A stretch of DNA of 64,000 nucleotides. It comes from Theristus sp. LFF4_11 (lineage: Eukaryota > Nematoda > Chromadorea > Monhysterida > Xyalidae). This document shows positions 17,195 through 49,350 of this stretch, one piece after another. The position numbers and the translations under genes were made by a program. Position 1 is the stretch's first letter. Each line of letters opens with the position of its first letter. The notes under the pieces are model-generated. The model worked only from the letters and a program-made list of their open reading frames with translations, was not told where the DNA came from and did no database searches. The stretch is from contig JASANC010001317.1 of assembly GCA_030248135.1 (NCBI GenBank), positions 1 to 64,000 of the forward strand. The letters are read 5' to 3'.

Positions 17195-18148
17195 ATGGCC
17201 AACGAGGGCCTGAATGTTGCGGGCGTGGCATGGCTGTGCTTGGCCAGTGCTCTGATTAGCAATGCTCAGCAAGTGAAGACCATTTACGACTTTGATGCTG
17301 TCGATATTGACTGTGAGAAATACGTCTCTATGGAAAAGTACAGGTACACACATAAAGTATAGAAGGTGTCTTCACGAGACCCCTTTTGACTGACATTATG
17401 TATGTGTTCGAGTGAGTTCACAAAATTGCATTTTCAGTGGTAAAGTTGTGTTGATTGTGAACGTGGCGACAAAATGAGGCTTTACACCAATCAGCTACAA
17501 GCAGCTTGAACCGCTCTATCAGAAATACAAAAAGCAAGGCTTTGAGATTGCAGCGTTTCCGTCAAATCAATTCAAAGATCAGGTGACCCGCAATTTTTTG
17601 GTCGAGCAATAACCTGTGTTAAAAGTCTATCACTAATTAATTAATTTATGTACTGCTTGAATGATTTTGACTGCGCACAGGAGCCAGGAACAAACCCAGA
17701 GATCAAAAAGTTTGTGCGAGAAGAAAAGAACTCAACGTTCGATTTGTACGCCAAAATCCTGGTAAATGGGCCTGATACACACCCGCTGTGGCGTTTTTTG
17801 AAACAATCGTTGGCAAACGAGTTTGGAACTGAGTGAGTACAGCAGTGATCAGTTTGTCAGCTGTTATGATGCATTTTGTTTGTGGAAAGCACCAATTTAA
17901 CTGCACTATTTTGTACATGCAGTGCCGTGACGTGGAACTTCACCAAATTCCTCATCAGTCGACGGGGTGTGCCCGTGGGACGCTATCGGCCATCGGTACC
18001 GCCAAATGTATGTTTCTTTGGCATTAACATCAAAGTTTTGTTGTAGCATTTGAAAGCCACAATATTCAGTTTAAAATTTTGATACACTTGTTCTTTTTTA
18101 CAGGAGATTGAAGCAGACATCGTTCGTGAACTGGCAAAAGAGGCGTAG
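17195..18148 (+). CDS. Selenocysteine glutathione peroxidase, secreted (gene 1)
   Basis: Five exons: 17195-17343, 17438-17582, 17681-17832, 17923-18007 and 18104-18148, giving 191 residues with selenocysteine at residue 63 encoded by TGA at 17475-17477. It would reduce peroxides with glutathione or another thiol. The start gives a signal peptide ([15 protein letters not shown]), so the enzyme is secreted or luminal. The active-site block reads IVNVATK-U-GFTPISY, exactly where GPx enzymes carry Sec or Cys. The other catalytic residues are present: Gln in NQFKDQEPG, and Trp-Asn in VTWNFTKFL. Two odd points: the usual PCNQFG is SNQFKD, losing the Cys, and the residue before Sec is Lys. The reading frame is open on both sides of the TGA and splice phases agree, so this is recoding, not decay. 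A SECIS-like hairpin follows at 18225-18297 and AATAAA at about 18394. Gene 2 at 19617 has the same intron phases, implying tandem duplication. Confidence 0.9.
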
Positions 18149-18224
18149 AGCAACGTGCGAAGTGCAGCGCGGTGTTGCTGTGTTGTGCTGATCTGCATGC
18201 AGGTGTGATTTCTGAACACTGCAC

Positions 18225-18297
18225 ATTTGAAGTTGTGACGTGCACTTGCTAAATTGCTACATTCAACTGCAACGCAGGTGCACTGATGTGATCATTT
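18225..18297 (+). promoter_or_regulatory. SECIS element of GPx gene 1
   Basis: 77 bases after the stop codon. Core quartet strands GTGA (18235-18238) and TGAT (18284-18287) flank a helix in which GTGCACTTGC (18240-18249) pairs with GCAGGTGCAC (18274-18283). An unpaired AAA (18251-18253) follows 12 bases after GTGA, at the canonical distance. A mini-stem TTGC/GCAA caps it, as in form II SECIS. SECIS RNA recruits SBP2 and EFSec so that UGA is read as selenocysteine. Helix I below the quartet is weak by eye. Confidence 0.8.
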
Positions 18298-18420
18298 GCT
18301 GCAGCTTGTTTTGTGTACATTCGATTGTTGTTGTGAATCATTCATACAAAACGTTTTGGCATTTTTGTTCTTGCTGTGCAAAACATCATGCGAAAAATAA
18401 AGACTCAAACAGCAACAACT

Positions 18421-19141
18421 GAACGACGTTTTAGTTCCATCCAGCTGCTTGCAGACCACCGCGACTTACAGGGTTGGGCGCCGAACGGTACACAATTTCC
18501 TTTAGGTGCCCCAAAAACATAAGTCAAGAGGAAAATTGAAACAAGTGCGCGAGTGGCTGTCGCCGTGTTCAGTGAGCGCTGGATCGGTCGCATGGGCAGA
18601 ATTGAATGGCCCGAGAAGAGTCCGGACATGAAGCCGTTGACTTCTGCGTTTGGAGGCATCTGACGGATAATCTGGGACATTTTCGGCGCCCACCACTGCA
18701 GCGGTGTGCAAAAAAACATCGATGATCGGGCGCTGCACCAGAAAGTGATCATCAGTTTCAAACATCGAATGTCGTCGTTCATTGAGAACAATGGAAAACA
18801 CATTGAGCAGCCGAGAAACATGAAACTGAACGACCGTGAGCATGAACATGATGACATCAGTGAAGTTGAAGCTGACGATGAACTTGTGCCACTGCCAGAT
18901 GACATTCTCGATGGCGACAATGATGTTTATCTTGAGTCAAAAAAACTGAATTTAGGTGATTTTTGAGTTTTTACGTATTTCTACTGAGATATTATTGAAA
19001 AAGTGGAATTTCGGAATAAAATTTGAACACACAAAATGTATTCCTTAGTTCTAAAAGTGTTTCAAATTTCACGGCTTTACATGCAACCAGTCGGCAGCAC
19101 GAGCCATTTACTTTTGCTATGTTTTTTTGGGACACCCTGTA
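18421..19141 (+). pseudogene. DDE transposase remnant (mariner-like) with right terminus
   Basis: Between the two GPx genes. Plus-strand translation gives RWIGRMGRIEWPEKSPDMKP, matching the C-terminal catalytic block of mariner/DDE_3 transposases (typically RWIGR.GPI.WP.RSPDL.PLDF). Upstream LGAPKT resembles the D-G-A-P block, and downstream HRMSSFIENNGKHIEQ resembles the usual C-terminal helix before an acidic tail. In-frame stops (after LGAPKT and after FGGI) and loss of the N-terminal half show it is dead. The right terminal repeat survives as TTTTTTTGGGACACCCTGTA ending at 19141, with the TA target. Confidence 0.7.
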
Positions 19142-19616
19142 TTTGCTGAAGCAGGAAAAAAGGAAAATTTGTTTCTTGATCAGTTTCAGTTTTTTCTTAT
19201 CGAGAACAACAGGACGCGGTCACATTTTGCTTTGTGCACGATTGTTATCGCTTGGTTGGTTTCACTTAGCGTTTTTTGAAATAATTTGTACGTTTACCTT
19301 ATTTGTACGATTTTTATAAACCAACAACGGGCGTTTTTTTACTGGGCCCGTTTGATTCAAATTCCAGAACTGGCACATTTTGTATTGTGTTTGTGGCATT
19401 AGCCTTATGTATCGAATCATACTATTCAGTATTCACTATCCAGTTTGTTATTGCTCATGGGATATTTTCGTTTGGTTTTTTATGTGCACATTTCCAAAAT
19501 CAAGAGCTAGCAAGATCTACAAGCTAGCAAAAAAACACAAATCTGTATTTTAGATAATTCAATCTAAAAAAATAGAAAAAGCCAGCAGAGCGTTCGAGCA
19601 ACACAAGTGAAGCGAA

Positions 19617-20551
19617 ATGGAACGCCTCGGGGCGTTCTGGCTGTTTGCGGCCGTGGCCGTGGTGAGCGCTGAGGACAACATATACAGCTTTGAGGCAGTT
19701 GACATCGACGGAAACACTGTGCCAATGCAAAAGTACAGGTAACCTGAGCCCGTCAATCAAACTTTGGTTTTGATTTTGTTTTTCTGAGAATTTGTGATTG
19801 ACCCATCTCTGAATTTTATTATTGCAGAGGCAAAGTAGTGTACATCGTGAATGTTGCGTCAAACTGAGGTTTCACGCCCGTTAACTATCAGCAAATGGAG
19901 CCAATCTATCAAAAATACAAAGCGCAAGGATTCGAAATCGCCGCGTTTCCGTGCAATCAGTTCGGTGGTCAGGTTGGTATGAGAGTTTTCCTTTGATTCG
20001 CAACAGAAAATCAACATCGCCGCAGTAAATTTTGCACTGCCACAGCGAAGTCTAGCATGAGCGAACTAGAAAATCTCGTTGAAGGAGCCAGGCACAAATG
20101 AAGAGATCAAACATTTCGTCCGAGACACGTGGAACTCGACTTTTGATTTGTACTCAAAAATCCTGGTCAACGGCCCACGGGCACATCCGCTCTGGAAGTT
20201 CCTGAAACAAAAAATTTCGGACGACATTGGAAATGGGTAAAAATATTTTGTTACCTTCGTTGGCTGCTATGCAGGTTTTAAAGACACAAATTTATTCGAA
20301 GCGATTGATTGCAGTGACATCAAGTGGAACTTCACGAAATTCTTGATTAACCGCCAAGGTGTGCCTGTGAAACGTTACCCACCGCCAACAAACCCGAACG
20401 TTTGTTCTTACGCACTTGGCTTATTTAAAATGATGAATACCCATCCATGAAGTTCAGTTGGTAACGGTTTAAAAATGACGTAATCTCAAAATGCCCAATT
20501 TAGGCCATTGTTCCGGACATTGTGAACGAGTTGGCTAAGCCGCCACAATAA
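19617..20551 (+). CDS. Selenocysteine glutathione peroxidase, secreted (gene 2)
   Basis: Five exons: 19617-19738, 19828-19972, 20085-20236, 20315-20399 and 20504-20551, giving 183 residues. Selenocysteine is residue 54 (TGA at 19865-19867) in IVNVASN-U-GFTPVNY. The signal peptide is [18 protein letters not shown], cleaved before EDN. The canonical [13 protein letters not shown] and KWNFTKFL motifs supply the remaining Gln and Trp-Asn of the catalytic tetrad. Exons 2-4 have exactly the same lengths (145, 152 and 85 nt) and phases as gene 1, proving common descent. The protein differs by keeping the CNQFGGQ motif. The exon 3 acceptor (GTTGAAG|GAG) is weaker than the others. A SECIS lies at 20661-20737. 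An AATAAA overlaps the stop codon (20546-20551), upstream of the SECIS. Confidence 0.92.
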
Positions 20552-20660
20552 ACGAATACATTAAAGACAACTGAAAAAGTTGAAACCGAAAAAGTAGATT
20601 TGCATTTGCTGATATGTTACACGGGAGATAAGAGTGAAACCGATCATATTGTTTCTACTT

Positions 20661-20737
20661 TGTGCTACTTGTGACATGTGTTCTGTCAAAGCGCAGCGCA
20701 ATTTGCGACACAGACACATTGATGTATGTGTAGCACG
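20661..20737 (+). promoter_or_regulatory. SECIS element of GPx gene 2
   Basis: Quartet strands GTGA (20671-20674) and TGAT (20720-20723). The upper helix pairs CATGTGTTCTGTC with GACACAGACACAT (with a bulge), and unpaired AAA is at 20688-20690. Below the quartet, TGTGCTAC (20661-20668) pairs with GTAGCACG (20730-20737) at seven of eight positions, giving a clear helix I. All expected SECIS parts are therefore present in the right order and spacing, 110-186 bases after the stop. Confidence 0.87.
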
Positions 20738-26099: not shown

Positions 26100-29000
26100 C
26101 TACTTGATTGATTGATTGATTGATTGACTACTTGATTGATAGATTGATTGATTGATTGACTACTTGATTGATTGATTACTTGATTGATTGATTGATTGAA
26201 ACGAATTGAGGCAATTGTCTCAAACACCAAAATCAGATGGAGTCTATTGAGGACGTCTCTGAAAAAAACCTGGTCAACCGACTGAGGACCATTTTACAGG
26301 CGACAAACAAGAGACGGCGATCAACATCGGCTACAGCTGCCGTCTGCTGACGGACGCCATGCGCGACGTGTTCGTCATCGATGGCGTCACGTTGCAGGAA
26401 GTGCAGACGCAGCTCAAGCACACGAAACGGCTGATGGACAAGTATGACCGGTTGAACGGGAACAGCAAACGCACTGAGGAATCGAAATCGCGCTCGCCCG
26501 AGCCATCGGTTGATGATGAGAACACGAAGCGAAGCGCGCACAGCTGCAGCAGCGTCGACCTGCGAACGCTGTCTGTCGGAGGCAACGCGCACGGTAACGT
26601 GAATCGCACTCGTGCGTGGCATACTGTGTGCATGCTTTGCTCAAAGTTGCAGAGTATGACACACCGACTGCACATGGTGTTGTATTGCTGGCCTCTGCGT
26701 TTCTTCACACACAAAAAACGCGATCTTCATTCAAAAAAGGTTCATTTTCATTGTGTTTCTTGCAGGTTTCGGCCTCGTGATCAACGGGCACAGTCTGATG
26801 CACGCGCTGTGCGACACGATGGAGCTGTTGCTGCTGGAAGTCGCCTCGCGATGTGACGCCGTGATCTGCTGTCGTGTGACGCCGCTGCAGAAGGCGATGG
26901 TGGTCGAGTTGGTGAAACGCAACAAGAACGCCGTCACACTGGCGATTGGCGACGGCGCTAATGACGGTCGGGGGAACGTTTTCATATGAAATGCAACTTT
27001 GAACACACGTGTTTAGAAGCATTATTTGACTTATCGAATATTGTAGACTCGTTCGGCACGAATGATTCTAACAAGGTTTTGCTTTGTCACCCTCGTTGCC
27101 AGGGTGGAAGCGCGTTAGTCTTCACTGTGAGTTCGGGAGATTGAGTCCCGCCGAGAGGTGTATAAATACTTAATGACAGAAAAACTCCATGTGCGTCCTG
27201 GTTGACGGGCGCTCTGTACGCCCGTTGCGTACTAATTCTAGGTTAGTATTGGTCAAAAACATTGCCGAAATTGCTGTTCGTTCGTTGGTTCGTTCATTCC
27301 CAGTGGTGCATCCAATGCATTTTCATATCCATTGTTTTTTTTTAGAAAAGCAGTCTGACTCACTGATATTCTACTCCTTTTCCAGTGTCCATGATCAAAG
27401 CGGCACACATTGGCGTCGGCATCAGTAGCCAAGAGGGCATGCAGGCCGTGATGAGCTCCGATTTTAGGTTGGTCCCGCCTTCGTTGATTGGACACGATTT
27501 GCTGTTTTTAAGAAACGGGGAGAAAGAAATGTGACGTTAACGAACGTCAGTCGGCGTCGCAATTGGCGTTAATTGACGTTAACTCATGTAACCGATTTCC
27601 TATAGTAGCTTGCAAAGCTAACCCCGAAAAGCATGCTAACAACTGCCCTGCATGATCAGTGTACACAATGATTATGTACGAACCCCGAACGTGCAGCCAG
27701 AAGCGAAGCTTTCTCCAGTTCCCGTCTTCAGCATCGCGCAATTCCGCTTCCTCGAGCGCCTCCTGCTCGTCCACGGTCGATGGTCGTACCTTCGAATGTC
27801 GAAATTTCTGTGCTACTTTTTCTACAAGAATTTTGCGTTCACGCTGGCCAACTTTTGGTATTCGTTCTTCTGCGCGTATTCGGCTCAGGTCAGGGCGTTT
27901 TGAGAATAATAAAGTCTTTAGTTTTAAAAAAACATGACTTTTTACCATCCCCGCCACTTCAAGTGCCAGCGCTGCGCTTTGATCAGTTGCGATACGTGCC
28001 GTAATTCACTTTCTTTCTTGTATTTCTGTTTCTTGGTTAAAGTTATATTTTTAAAAAACTTGACTCATTCCCAAAAATCCCTTCATTCCCAAACTTCAGC
28101 AATTCTCTACACTCCCTCCATGCGCTGCATGCTTTTTAACGTTGCCTGTCTCGTCCTCAATTCCGAAACGTGCACCATTTTGCCGCAATGCGCCGGTTTT
28201 TTGGTTTTACCGCGCGTATCGCAAACAAAAATTTTTTTTTTATTCAATCAACATGATTATAAGTTTTTACTTTATTTACTTTCAGTCGATTTACGACGAG
28301 ATTCTGTTGACGCTGTACAACATTGTGTTCACCTCGATGCCGGTGATGGTGATGGGAATCATGGACAAAGATGTCAATGAGAAATACTCGCTAAGGTACA
28401 GTTATAATGTAATTGATGTAAAAAGTGACGCTTTTTGTGAAAGCACTTTGAAAAGTTTGAGACTTTTGAATTACGGTAGCAAAGTTAAAAAAAAACAAAC
28501 GAGAAAACAAGCGAAGAGGTTTGAAAGTTTTCTCAAAGAACTTTTTACATGAGAGTTAGTGTCTGTGTAGATATCCAGATAGGTTCAAAAATTTCTATCT
28601 GGAAAAATTGTTTTCATCAATTCGTTTCGCGCACCACAGATTTCCAAAGTTGTACATACCGGGCCAGTTCAATCTGTACTTCAACATGCGCATCTTCATC
28701 TACTCGATGTTCCATGGTACCGTCAGTTCGATGGCGTTGTTTTTCATTCCCTACTGGTTTTTCAACGAGACCATTGGCGAAAACGGACAGGAGCAGAACG
28801 ACTACGCGTCGCTGGCGTTTGCGATCTTCTCCTGTTTGGTCGTGGCGGTCAGCGGGCAGATCGCGATGGACACTTCATATTGGACAGGTGCAGTCTTTGC
28901 TGGACATTAGCTAGACAGCAAGATATGCATGTGGCGTTGAACAGTCTAAACAAATACACCGGCACAGAAGCACTCCTGAAACAGCAGTGTGTGTGTGTGT

Positions 29001-36876: not shown

Positions 36877-39800
36877 TTACGAATCACCTAAAAACACATC
36901 GGCCGAATCATGCATCCATGCAAACACTCGAGGCAAGAATACCGTATTTCCTGAGTCCTCAACACAATCCACAGTACTGTCCACATGCCAAAACACACCC
37001 GTAAACATCCTCATCAGCATCCCATAATAACGAAACCACAAATCGTGAACATCCAAATAAAGTTGAATCAACGTATTAGCAAGCAACTCGTGTTCCGTTC
37101 CACTGTGACACGACGCCAAGACGCCATTGACGACAATTGAGCCGGTCGCCGTGTATGGACCGTAGATTCCCGAGCGGACTTCACGGTCCACGCTTGTGAC
37201 CACGGTCTTTAGCACTGGAGGGATTATTGTGGGCGGGCGCCGATTTTCAGGATGCACTGTGACCTTCGTATGAATTGGCAATTGATTTTGACTTTGGTGA
37301 TCTGCTATTACGGTGATGCAGTGGCCGACCTGTGAAAATGAGTAAAATAAGTGTACGTAAATGTCTAAGGGCACTATTTTTCAGTTGTTAAAAAATTGAA
37401 ATGTCTGTATCAGCATTTTAGAAAGAAGTTGCTCCATTGACGTTGTGCTGCTGTTTTTAAACCATTTTGGTTAAATTGGCGTTGCACTTTTAATTTTACG
37501 AATGACATGATAAAATTGCAAGTAACCGGTACTTTTTTATGAGCGAGTACGCGGTAATGTGAATTGTTTGCTGTATCATTTTCAGAGAACATAAAACTCG
37601 AACGAACACAATATTTTTTTGATTTAGTCTCCAACCTCGACATTGCCCGCAAAAACGGCGCTCAGCATTCGGTCGCACGGTGCCGCATAGACTAAATGTT
37701 TCGTAGTCAAGCGCAGTTCATTGCCAGCGTGAGTTTTGATGTTCACAAACTCCGCAGTTTCGTCTGGCAGCCGGTGCAGGAACGCGCGCACTCGACTGAA
37801 CACCAGTGCTTCTGGTTCGGCGCCGTCCGATTTTGAAATTCCCGCCAAAATTCTATCACCTATACGAAGTTCGTCCATTCGCTTTTGTCGGCCGTCGTCG
37901 GTTAGAACCTGAAAATCAAGGAAACTCCAATTGTTTCAAAAAACTCTAGTTTAAGAGGCTGATTGGCTGTGTCACGCTGAAGATTGCCCAAGACCAAGAC
38001 CAGTACCCTTCGTTTTTTAGAATTAGAGAATCGGTCAGCTGACCATTGTCGCCGACGTCTTGCATAAAAGATAACTGCAGCATTATTTTTTTCACGGTTT
38101 TTGTTCGGTGCAGTTGGTCCAAAACGCGGGACACCTTGCTTGACCTCGAGATATCGACTACTTGACACTATCAAGCAGTTGGAGCCGAGTTTATAATTTT
38201 GAGTTCGACCGTACCTCCATATCACCGCTGAAGCACGCCGGTTTGTCGGCCAACTGTGGAAAATTGAACAAATCGCTCATTGTGCGCTGCTCTGACCCAC
38301 GAATGTGTGAGAACCTAAACGCTCCAAAGTGCCATTAAAGTGCCAGTGTGTAGAGGAAGTACTGTGTGTGGTGCATTAGCAACGTGTTTTCGTGGTGTAG
38401 CGGTTATCACGTCAGTCTCACACACTGAAGGTCCCCGGTTCGATCCCGGGCGAAAACAGTTGAATTTTTATATATTTTTAAAATAGAAAACAAGTGAAAT
38501 GAAACGTCAAAACAGATGAGTCATGATACAGACACAAAACCTGTGAAATTTCACGTTTTGTCACCCTCATGTCCTTGGTGGTAGCGCGTTAGACTATTCT
38601 CTGTGCGGGGGATCCGGCCCCACGAGGGATGTATAAACACTTAATGACAGAGATGGGCGTCCTACTCGACGGCGTTCTGTACACTTTTCTGGGTTAGCCC
38701 CGGCTAAAATTATTGCGTAAAATCACCATTCGTTCCTAATTTAATGTTTGTGATGGTGCCACTTCAAATTTTAAACTTTAAAATTTGCCACTTTAAACCT
38801 CCATTTCAAAAAGCGCAATCTACGTACAATGTAACATGTTTTTGTAGTTTGTTTATGTACTATTATTTGCTGACTGACGTATTACGTGCTGTACACGTAC
38901 CTTTCCAGCTCGTCCGGAATTATGAAAGGCTCTGCAAATTGTCGTTCTGAGTCGGTTTCTTGTTTTTCGGCGAGCCGTCCAAAATTAGGCAGCAAATCTT
39001 GCGCATTTTTGTTGCGAAATTGCTCATTGCTCACAAACGGCAGTGGCGGAGCACCGATCAGTTCGCCAAAAGGTTTTTCCCGGACTTTTGGTGGAATTTC
39101 ATTTTCGAATGATCTTCGTCGGCCGAGAAACCGCGACAGAAATGAAGTTGGCAGTTTCTCATCGTCCATCTTTCGAGCTCCGCGGAAAGCAGCTTGTCGC
39201 GGGATGACAGGTGCAGCTGCATCTTGTTGGCGTTGCAACTGTTGATATCTTGAATAGTTTAAAAAAATGCGTAGCATACTCTCATTTTAGTTTTTTTTGC
39301 TGAACTGAAAACGATTTTAGTTTTCAAGCACAATCAAAGCAATGTTTTCGTGGTGTAGCGGTTATCACGTCAGTCTCACACACTGAAGGTCCCCGGTTCG
39401 ATCCCGGGCGAAAACAGTATTTCTTTTCTTCCACCACACAACGAATGAAAAATTAATCAAGACATACGTTTTTTCAAAACAAAAATGAAACATTATTCCA
39501 ACCGGGTTTTACCAACTTTTGTTCCAAATTGAGTGCCTTTAGAAATGGAAAATTCAGTGGCAGTTTGTTGTCGTTGTCTTGTTCGATGCTCTCAATCCAA
39601 CTTCTCTGATCCGGCCTCACTGAAAATGTATTTCATTTGTGTATTCTTTTCTTCGGTGGAGGAGTGGAACTTGGAACGAAGAACAAAAGCAGCATGACTC
39701 AAATATGAAAAAACGAACCAAGCGTTGCAATAGGGAGTGAAGAACAAGCCACACTGTACAGAGAGAGCCTGGCGCCATTTCTGAAAAAAAATGTTTGCTT

Positions 39801-48060: not shown

Positions 48061-48721
48061 TGTCCGGACCCCAAATGCCGCAGCGGCTTGTCTGAAAAAT
48101 GAAACGTATTTGCATAATTTCTGCGCTTTCAATTGTGATAGATGCAGACCAAAAAGGGAATGAATTTAATTGTGGTAAAATTAAATTAATTGAGAAATAC
48201 AGTAAGTTTTATTGTGCTGCGTTTGTGAAAGAAACCAACAGATAAAAACGATGAAAACAACTGGGCTAAGACGGGTTTCGAACTTTGGCCTCTGTGCTGA
48301 CAGGCACAACATGTTACCACTGCACTATAGTAGTTGACGGGTGGGAACCTCTCTAGGTGTTTGTTCATTAAATGTCGTTCAGTTTTATCGTTTTGTGCTG
48401 TTGTCTGTGTTGTCTCCGTACGTGCTGTTTAGTACACACTATATACCGCTTCGATTCGTTGTTTTCGCCGTTTCAGTGAATGTTTTGATCTTTTGATTTG
48501 TGCAACATTCACTAATCATGTGCTGCCGTTGAGGAAACTTTTTTTGCAATGCTCTACACCGTGGCAAGGCTAAAAAAGGAAAAAGGTTTCACGCCAAACC
48601 GCAGTTGAAGAAAACAATCACTTCACATCACGGTGTGGGGTACCGATGTGCGCAGCCCTCAAAACCGGTGTGCGTGCAGGCCGCAAGAAATTTATGCGGC
48701 TGCACTGTTTCGACACGGGTT
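48061..48721. other. Spacer with tRNA-like fragment; no gene
   Basis: Separates the 107-bp repeats from the 19-bp array. Contains a tRNA-like sequence at 48264-48340 and otherwise nothing recognised. Confidence 0.4.
48264..48340 (-). repeat. tRNA-like sequence (SINE or tRNA pseudogene)
   Basis: On the minus strand, CTATAGTGCAGTGGTAACAT resembles an A-box and AAAGTTCGAAACCC a B-box, with roughly tRNA spacing and GGGCTAAG at the 3' side. The 5' acceptor strand does not pair, so a working tRNA is unlikely. The style resembles the fragment at 32955-33018. Confidence 0.4.
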
Positions 48722-49196
48722 GAGGGCTGTGCACCACTTTGAGGGCTGTGCACCACTTTGAGGGCTGTGCACCACTTTGAGGGCTGTGCACCACTTTGAG
48801 GGCTGTGCACCATTTTGAGGGCTGTGCACCACTTTGAGGGCTGTGCACCACTTTGAGGGCTGTGCACCACTTTGAGGGCTGTGCACCACTTTGAGGGCTG
48901 TGCACCACTTTGAGGGCTGTGCACCACTTTGAGGGCTGTGCACCACTTTGAGGGCTGTGCACCACTTTGAGGGCTGTGCACCACTTTGAGGGCTGTGCAC
49001 CACTTTGAGGGCTGTGCACCACTTTGAGGGCTGTGCACCATTTTGAGGGCTGTGCACCACTTTGAGGGCTGTGCACCACTTTGAGGGCTGTGCACCACTT
49101 TGAGGGCTGTGCACCACTTTGAGGGCTGTGCACCACTTTGAGGGCTGTGCACCACTTTGAGGGCTGTGCACCACTTTGAGGGCTGTGCACCACTTT
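48722..49196 (+). repeat. Minisatellite, 25 perfect-length copies of a 19-bp unit
   Basis: The unit GAGGGCTGTGCACCACTTT repeats 25 times with no length change (475 bp). Only two units differ, with CCATTTT for CCACTTT at about 48811 and 49031. Because 19 is not a multiple of 3 and the unit has no stop on the minus strand, all three minus frames are open and give the same 19-residue peptide period. That is a property of the array, not proof of a protein. Confidence 0.97.
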
Positions 49197-49350
49197 GAGC
49201 GCGCGTCCGTGAATGCGCATGTGCTCCAAAACTGAAGCGCGCTGACGCACGCTGAAGCGCGCTGTTTTTTTGCTTCGTGAATGTGTAGCAAAGTGAAGCG
49301 CGTCAGCGCGCTTCAGCGCGCTTCAGCGCGCTTCAACCTCCATGAATGGC
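49197..49350. repeat. GCGCGCTGAAGCGCGCTGA arm flanking the minisatellite
   Basis: Alternating GAAGCGCGCTGA and its inverse TCAGCGCGCTTC form a local palindrome. The outer end (CTCCATGAATGGCGC) mirrors GGCCCATTCATG at 47747, suggesting that 47745-49350 is one composite foldback carrying two tandem arrays. Confidence 0.6.

Follow-up and report, generated by a model that had tools for sequence, protein, structure and literature searches.

Tandem GPX4-like peroxidase genes with a proposed selenocysteine codon and a multi-family selenoproteome in a probable nematode genome

The stretch analyzed here, referred to as the window, comprises bases 1-64000 of contig C840, which is 75157 bases long, from an assembly of 159.4 Mb in 3744 contigs. 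Its plus strand carries a tandem pair of PHGPx (GPX4-type) glutathione peroxidase genes, GPx A (17195-18148) and GPx B (19617-20551). In each, a single in-frame TGA occupies the catalytic position, and a SECIS-like element (selenocysteine insertion sequence) lies in the 3′ flank. We consider it highly probable from these features that both are functional tandem duplicates using selenocysteine (Sec), in a nematode that has kept selenoproteins of at least five families. An initial annotation of the window had pointed to this gene pair; the observation was confirmed and extended, as the genome also holds the Sec machinery, two more UGA-containing GPx genes and four genes for other selenoproteins. 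The enzymes themselves are ordinary, being further members of a known family, and the surprise lies in a multi-family selenoproteome with a Sec-type SPS2 in a nematode.

Gene structure, catalytic site and family of the peroxidases

Spliced models gave both genes five coding exons with GT..AG introns at identical positions, and each coding sequence (192 codons in GPx A and 184 in GPx B, stop included) contained a single TGA before its true stop. In GPx A, exon 1 (17195-17343) encodes a likely signal peptide and the start of the mature protein, exon 2 (17438-17582) holds the proposed Sec codon at 17475-17477 (VATK-U-GFT), exon 3 spans 17681-17832, exon 4 (17923-18007) contains the catalytic Trp-Asn in TWNFTKFL, and exon 5 (18104-18148) ends in TAG. 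The layout of GPx B is the same, with a likely signal peptide in exon 1 (19617-19738), the proposed Sec codon at 19865-19867 (VASN-U-GFT) in exon 2 (19828-19972), exon 3 at 20085-20236, KWNFTKFL in exon 4 (20315-20399), and a TAA stop in exon 5 (20504-20551). Exons 2 and 3 of both genes were also found by a genome search with PF00255 (GSHPx domain). The active-site TGA, the open frame and the consistent splicing on either side, as described in the initial annotation, were thus all borne out.

The TGA context is common to both genes, NVA(T/S)(K/N)-U-GFT. With Cys written for the TGA, PF00255 scored GPx A at 126.7 bits and GPx B at 145.9, against a cut-off of 27. In an alignment that adds two further genes of the same genome, GPx C and GPx D, the UGA of every gene falls in the same column, that of the catalytic Cys/Sec residue. 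All four proteins contain NQF and WNF(T/S)KFL, which correspond to the Gln and the Trp-Asn of the catalytic tetrad, on the assumption that we have placed the GPX4 positions correctly. GPx A has two Cys codons and GPx B one, none of them in what we take to be the region where a resolving Cys would be expected. The alignment of GPx B with GPX4-type chains required one short gap and showed no long oligomerization loop. Its nearest solved chains were designs derived from 2OBI (a GPX4 entry) and GPX4 entries, closely followed by 2v1m, presumably a Schistosoma GPx, with GPX1, 2 and 3 far behind. We are therefore confident, on features of the sequence, that the catalytic residue of GPx A and GPx B is selenocysteine; their selenium content and peroxidase activity are predictions of the same kind.

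Both N-termini consist of a short start followed by a hydrophobic stretch that resembles a signal peptide by eye, and both proteins have an additional N-glycosylation sequon, NST, which GPx C and GPx D lack. GPx A and GPx B thus probably enter the secretory pathway. The suggestion of two extracellular Sec-GPx enzymes with signal peptides stands in so far as the signal peptides are likely; it is amended in that the enzymes are of the GPX4/PHGPx type and belong to a set of four UGA-containing genes.

The genome search with PF00255 scored nine candidates, eight of them over the cut-off and all within these four genes, and it found no Cys-type GPx. GPx C and GPx D are arranged in tandem on the minus strand of contig C3415, with the first bases of their TGA codons at C3415:91604 and 89013. 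Two exon-3 matches on this contig span a stop (TGA, TAG), which is located in the intron right before the splice site. Five exons and every intron position are common to the four genes. In a tree of 124 proteins, the four GPx formed one clade (99/93) composed of the pairs A+B and C+D; five named nematode Cys-GPx and the unnamed P0063 made up a separate clade. A 50-row tree recovered the clade again (100/98), with weaker support for C+D (97/38). Constraining the four to group with those six proteins cost 7.7 log units (p-AU 0.076) and was not rejected at 0.05. On this topology, we favor duplication of the GPx genes inside the lineage.

Downstream of the UGA, pN was 0.18-0.30 and pS 0.62-0.82 in all six pairs of the four genes. 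Since dS between the paralogues is near or past saturation, only the direction of selection is safe; by this comparison, purifying selection acts on the reading frame beyond the TGA in each of the four.

Two side observations concern these genes. Among 42 database GPx in the animal-like clade, 16 carry Trp at the catalytic position (P0002, P0003, P0006, P0007, P0009, P0010, P0012, P0018, P0019, P0033, P0050, P0066, P0087, P0097, P0099 and P0110), 22 carry Cys, and four were unmatched by the motif; the Trp proteins are probably Sec-GPx in which a gene caller translated TGA as Trp. Between GPx A and GPx B, at 18500-19000, lies a broken transposase-like stretch, named by eye, with a motif like EWPEKSPDMKPL.

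SECIS-like elements of the GPx genes

Both strands of the window were scanned for [AG]TGA followed by a 9-13 nt helix, AA and then a 3′ TGA, which yielded 127 candidates on the plus strand and 118 on the minus strand (245). The element of GPx A (18222-18299; quartet at 18235, 86 nt beyond the stop codon) reached the top helix score of the plus strand, 10.5, and that of GPx B (20658-20735; quartet at 20671, 119 nt beyond the stop codon) was joint second at 9.0. The initial annotation had noted a SECIS-like hairpin in each 3′ flank, and these two elements agree with it. In 60 shuffled 64-kb windows, the mean number of plus-strand candidates at a score of at least 9 was 0.18, as against three in the real window, and dinucleotide shuffles of the own 400-nt flank reached the observed score in 5/5000 cases for A, 13/5000 for B and 135/5000 for the element of GPx C.

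The anatomy of the elements goes beyond the scan pattern. From the 5′ end, element A presents the GUGAC side, helix II, AAA, a mini-stem and the UGAUG side, and element B has the same parts with a helix I of GUGCUAC/GUAGCAC. The full GTGAC and TGATG were features that the scan had not demanded, and they occurred together in only three of the 245 candidates, namely A, B and a third at 37259 with a score of 4.5. The non-Watson-Crick UGA/GA quartet, helix II, apical AA and helix I are present in A and B as well as in GPx C and in four other selenoprotein genes of the genome (SPS2, TrxR, SelW and Sep15, described below), helix I being clearest in the B and C elements and less clear in A. Among A, B and C, both sides were changed in five of the eight basal pairs of helix II while 23 of 24 cells were still paired, and GUGAC, AA and UGAUG were invariant. 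Sliding the partner by one to three columns lowered the pairing to 29-54%, and redealing the 3′ letters reached the covariation values in 19/500 and 17/500 shuffles.

Several results weigh against this assignment. The covariation is based on three sequences only, and the pair-type count, one of five covariation measures, was reached by 107 of 500 shuffles. A candidate at 26444 ties with element B at 9.0 and has no known selenoprotein beside it. The minimum free energies of A, B and C were no better than those of shuffles (z -1.06, -0.66 and -0.56). A scan of the window and of 121-base pieces with Rfam RF00031 gave no SECIS match on A or B. GPx D lacks a canonical SECIS, CAC taking the place of the apical AA. 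As to the 26444 candidate, it has ATGAC instead of GTGAC, lies near P4-ATPase-like exons and is probably due to chance. Folding energy likewise gave no signal for the elements of GPx D and Sep15; among the six elements compared (A, B, C, D, Sep15 and SPS2), SPS2 alone stood out (z -2.35, 2/200 shuffles).

The initial annotation had looked to a covariance model for its SECIS elements, and the outcome was mixed. RF00031 missed A and B, and it also gave no SECIS match on the loci of GPx C/D, SPS2, SelW and TrxR, but the Sep15 element passed its gathering score (35.6 vs 35 bits). Because an element of the same genome passes, the misses on A and B look like low sensitivity. The functional class of the two elements is accordingly drawn from anatomy rather than from Rfam membership, and we infer it on that basis. 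A covariance model of our own (R1), trained on A, B and C, picked up these elements again along with three weak matches (E 0.6-4.4), and missed D; as it recovers its own training set, it offers no independent support. In GPx D, a SECIS-like fold with helix I, a UGUGAC/CGAUG loop, helix II and a mini-stem was located on the minus strand of C3415 (L016:2738-2809); a MAFFT alignment of the four GPx elements had put D in the wrong place. This element may be a variant or a decaying SECIS.

Selenocysteine machinery, other selenoprotein genes and competing explanations

The initial annotation had named tRNA-Sec and EFSec as genes to look for, and both are present, as are SecS and SPS2. A tRNA-Sec gene at C226:39644-39729 scored 78.9 bits (cut-off 47), the sole one of seven matches to exceed the cut-off, with the anticodon TCA identified by eye. 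SecS was found on C3428 with six exon matches over the cut-off, two of which show stops at the exon edge that we read as intron sequence. Domain III of eEFSec gave two exon matches over the cut-off on C935 and none in 14 control genomes. On C1480, four exon matches to SPS remained under the whole-protein cut-off, and the selD model was weakly positive in all 14 controls; the gene is assigned to SPS because its UGA-bearing exon matches SPS chains.

This SPS2 gene reads FDPATLDLPADFRLTSFAKLKG-TGA-GCKVPREV, with the UGA at C1480:25920-25922 (L037) and a SECIS quartet near C1480:29057. Its UGA aligns with a Cys in chain 5l16 ("putative selenophosphate synthetase") and with a Thr in selenide, water dikinase 1. 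A thioredoxin reductase (TrxR) on the minus strand of C2212 ends in TGC-TGA-GGC-TAG (GCUG), with the UGA at 243170-243172 and a SECIS quartet near 243079. SelW on C2632 (L039; matches PF10262) reads MVVKIHILYCGA-TGA-GYRPKAERIRQ, and Sep15 on C2710 (L044; matches PF08806) reads YPFAELHVCG-TGA-KIGRFPQV, both with the UGA at the redox site. The TrxR exon match scored equally on C2212 and at C3154:17523, and equal-score pairs were also seen for collagen (e.g. C670/C1445 and C172/C2099), so the assembly seems to retain uncollapsed haplotypes. Altogether, eight genes in five families have a UGA at the Sec site, seven of them with a canonical SECIS. Deiodinase and SelK gave no match in the genome, and since their models were equally silent in the control genomes, their absence is not demonstrated; Rdx gave a single match.

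A GTGAC..AA..TGATG element lies downstream of each of SPS2, TrxR, SelW and Sep15. The GTGAC/TGATG signature appeared once, with a score of 1.5, in the 125968 strand-bases of 14 control loci from this genome, and in five selenoprotein loci it appeared at all five elements and at one extra site, which scored 1.0. Across the seven canonical elements, 42 of 42 basal pairs were formed, a value reached by 2 of 20000 permutations; this test is biased because the elements had been chosen for pairing, and the start points of the SPS2 and SelW flanks were picked by hand. Its unbiased part is that in all seven GTGA is followed by C and TGA by TG, neither of which the scan had requested. According to excerpts of PMC3473315 on six invertebrates, SECIS core patterns from one organism resemble each other more than those from one protein family do, and the single SECIS style across five families here fits that pattern.

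With these components, the UGA of GPx A and GPx B would be decoded by the standard eukaryotic route, in which the SECIS in the 3′ untranslated region recruits SECIS-binding machinery, eEFSec and Sec-tRNA. The enzymes would then work extracellularly or in the lumen of the endoplasmic reticulum, reducing lipid peroxides or hydrogen peroxide with glutathione or another thiol as electron donor; Sec insertion, secretion, substrate and donor are all predicted from sequence. A glutathione-reductase-like exon on C2922 that ends in HPTSAEELVTMR, named by eye, fits a glutathione cycle for the pair.

The genome is likely that of a nematode, judging from its protein domains. In the window, a cuticle collagen N-terminal domain (Col_cuticle_N, PF01484; 14739-14858, plus strand), a phylum marker in the neighboring gene upstream of the pair, scored 35.5 bits (cut-off 23.5), and DUF273 scored 104.1 bits (cut-off 30); the DUF273 protein had no relative at E 0.001 or better among 90 candidates. 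Genome-wide, Col_cuticle_N gave 84 matches among 110 candidates scored. Because two of them lie on C935, the eEFSec gene is not on a stray contig, and the markers on C935 and on the window contig counter the concern about non-nematode contamination. The alternative that best survives is another worm, such as a nematomorph, in which a larger selenoproteome would be less surprising. It could draw on SecS, whose best 120 of 2891 matches (52-58% identical) include no named nematode, the named relatives being fish, amphibians, reptiles, molluscs, ticks, corals and a sea cucumber, and on the placement of the four GPx outside the nematode Cys-GPx. The assembly also gave no COX1 match, and excerpts of PMC3473315 record GUGA quartets in sponges and algae. 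The collagen matches and DUF273 speak for a nematode, as does the TrxR C-terminus: its best solved match was 22fc (thioredoxin-disulfide reductase), and best and third were other TrxR/TGR chains, but the second was 7p0x, given as Brugia malayi TrxR in the accessible part of PMC8914392. GUGA quartets have been noted in nematode selenoprotein genes as well (PMC2375036, in part). We therefore regard another worm as unlikely.

The trees, in which the four GPx stand apart from nematode Cys-GPx and joining the two is costly but not rejected, would also suit a history in which Sec was regained, either by a Cys-GPx ancestor that reverted to UGA and gained a SECIS or by gene transfer. Five unrelated families of one genome, with a single SECIS style, have UGA at the Sec site; independent regain is thus far less likely than retention, and we judge it very improbable. 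The initial annotation had left it as a trait either kept or re-expanded; because the trait is wider than GPx, its first half is favored, and re-expansion from one gene is less so.

If the TGAs were true stops, the genes would be copies in decay whose only products are short N-terminal peptides. The noncanonical SECIS of GPx D would be in keeping with such decay, but in every one of the four, purifying selection has preserved the frame, the splice sites and the protein beyond the TGA, each has its single TGA at the catalytic column, and the helices of the A, B and C elements show covariation, which leaves this reading with hardly any probability. Genome-wide reassignment of UGA to Trp or Cys, which would turn the in-frame TGAs of eight genes into ordinary codons, has almost no probability, given one TGA per GPx coding sequence at the Sec column, 2-4 TGG and 1-2 Cys codons elsewhere in each, and the tRNA-Sec gene and SECIS elements of the genome.

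We find it fairly likely that this lineage kept the ancestral animal selenoproteome (at least the four GPx, TrxR, SelW, Sep15 and Sec-type SPS2), and that the collapse to one selenoprotein and the change of SPS2 and GPx from Sec to Cys took place inside Nematoda and not at its base. In the same scenario, tandem duplication gave rise to a secreted pair of Sec peroxidases, and the SECIS of GPx D came to have CAC for AA.

Other features of the window were recorded as well. A tandem repeat at 48621-49322 has three open minus-strand frames with PSKWCTALKVVHSPQ-like units, and two tRNA-Val (CAC) genes of equal score lie about 1 kb apart (38385-38459 and 39343-39417). On the minus strand, 36880-37380 contains a Hint-domain gene (PF01079), which we take to be of the hedgehog-related type known from nematodes.

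Comparison with known selenoproteomes

Caenorhabditis elegans is the textbook example of a complete selenocysteine machinery maintained for the sake of a single UGA codon, and Sec-using nematodes reportedly have only Cys-SPS2. In the open PMC literature, as covered by titles and abstract openings among the matches listed and with subscription papers outside the scope, no report of a nematode Sec-GPx or Sec-SPS2 was found. If our reading is true, a nematode that uses Sec in five or more families, SPS2 among them, dates the loss within the phylum and lets the Sec version of an enzyme be compared with its Cys version inside that phylum. The reasons why most studied nematodes dropped Sec in GPx and SPS2, such as habitat, host, oxygen and selenium supply, would become testable. 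Automatic annotation may truncate such genes at the TGA.

Like the Sec PHGPx/GPX4 enzymes of vertebrates and flatworms, GPx A and GPx B have a catalytic UGA, the Gln and Trp-Asn residues, no resolving Cys and a SECIS in the 3′ flank. They differ in being likely secreted, with a signal peptide and the extra NST sequon, in having a GUGA quartet instead of the commoner AUGA, and in occurring as part of four copies in two tandem pairs. A GTGA is also given for Schistosoma japonicum GPx in the available part of PMC2679728, and a G preceding the quartet is noted for nematode and zebrafish selenoprotein genes in that of PMC2375036.

Nematode Cys-GPx, such as those of Dirofilaria, Bursaphelenchus, Aphelenchus, Heterodera and Panagrellus, belong to the same enzyme family, and filarial Cys-GPx are likewise secreted (PMC6155587, in part). 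Those enzymes carry Cys for Sec, in line with the report of nematode GPx as Cys forms in excerpts of PMC2679728, whereas the genes described here have UGA and a SECIS. They also have five coding exons, as compared with the three given for free-living nematode PHGPx genes in the same excerpts, a comparison of counts only.

With the selenoproteome of the C. elegans type, limited to TRXR-1, this genome shares tRNA-Sec, eEFSec, SecS, SPS2, a Sec-TrxR and GUGA-type SECIS elements. It goes beyond that set by a UGA in four GPx genes, SPS2, SelW and Sep15. Excerpts of earlier work credit C. elegans and C. briggsae with one selenoprotein (PMC2375036) and name "Trx reductase and/or SelK" as nematode selenoproteins (PMC2679728). 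Cys-containing SPS has been reported, among metazoans, in nematodes only (PMC4561486, in part); unlike that Cys-SPS2, the SPS2 found here has both a UGA and a SECIS.

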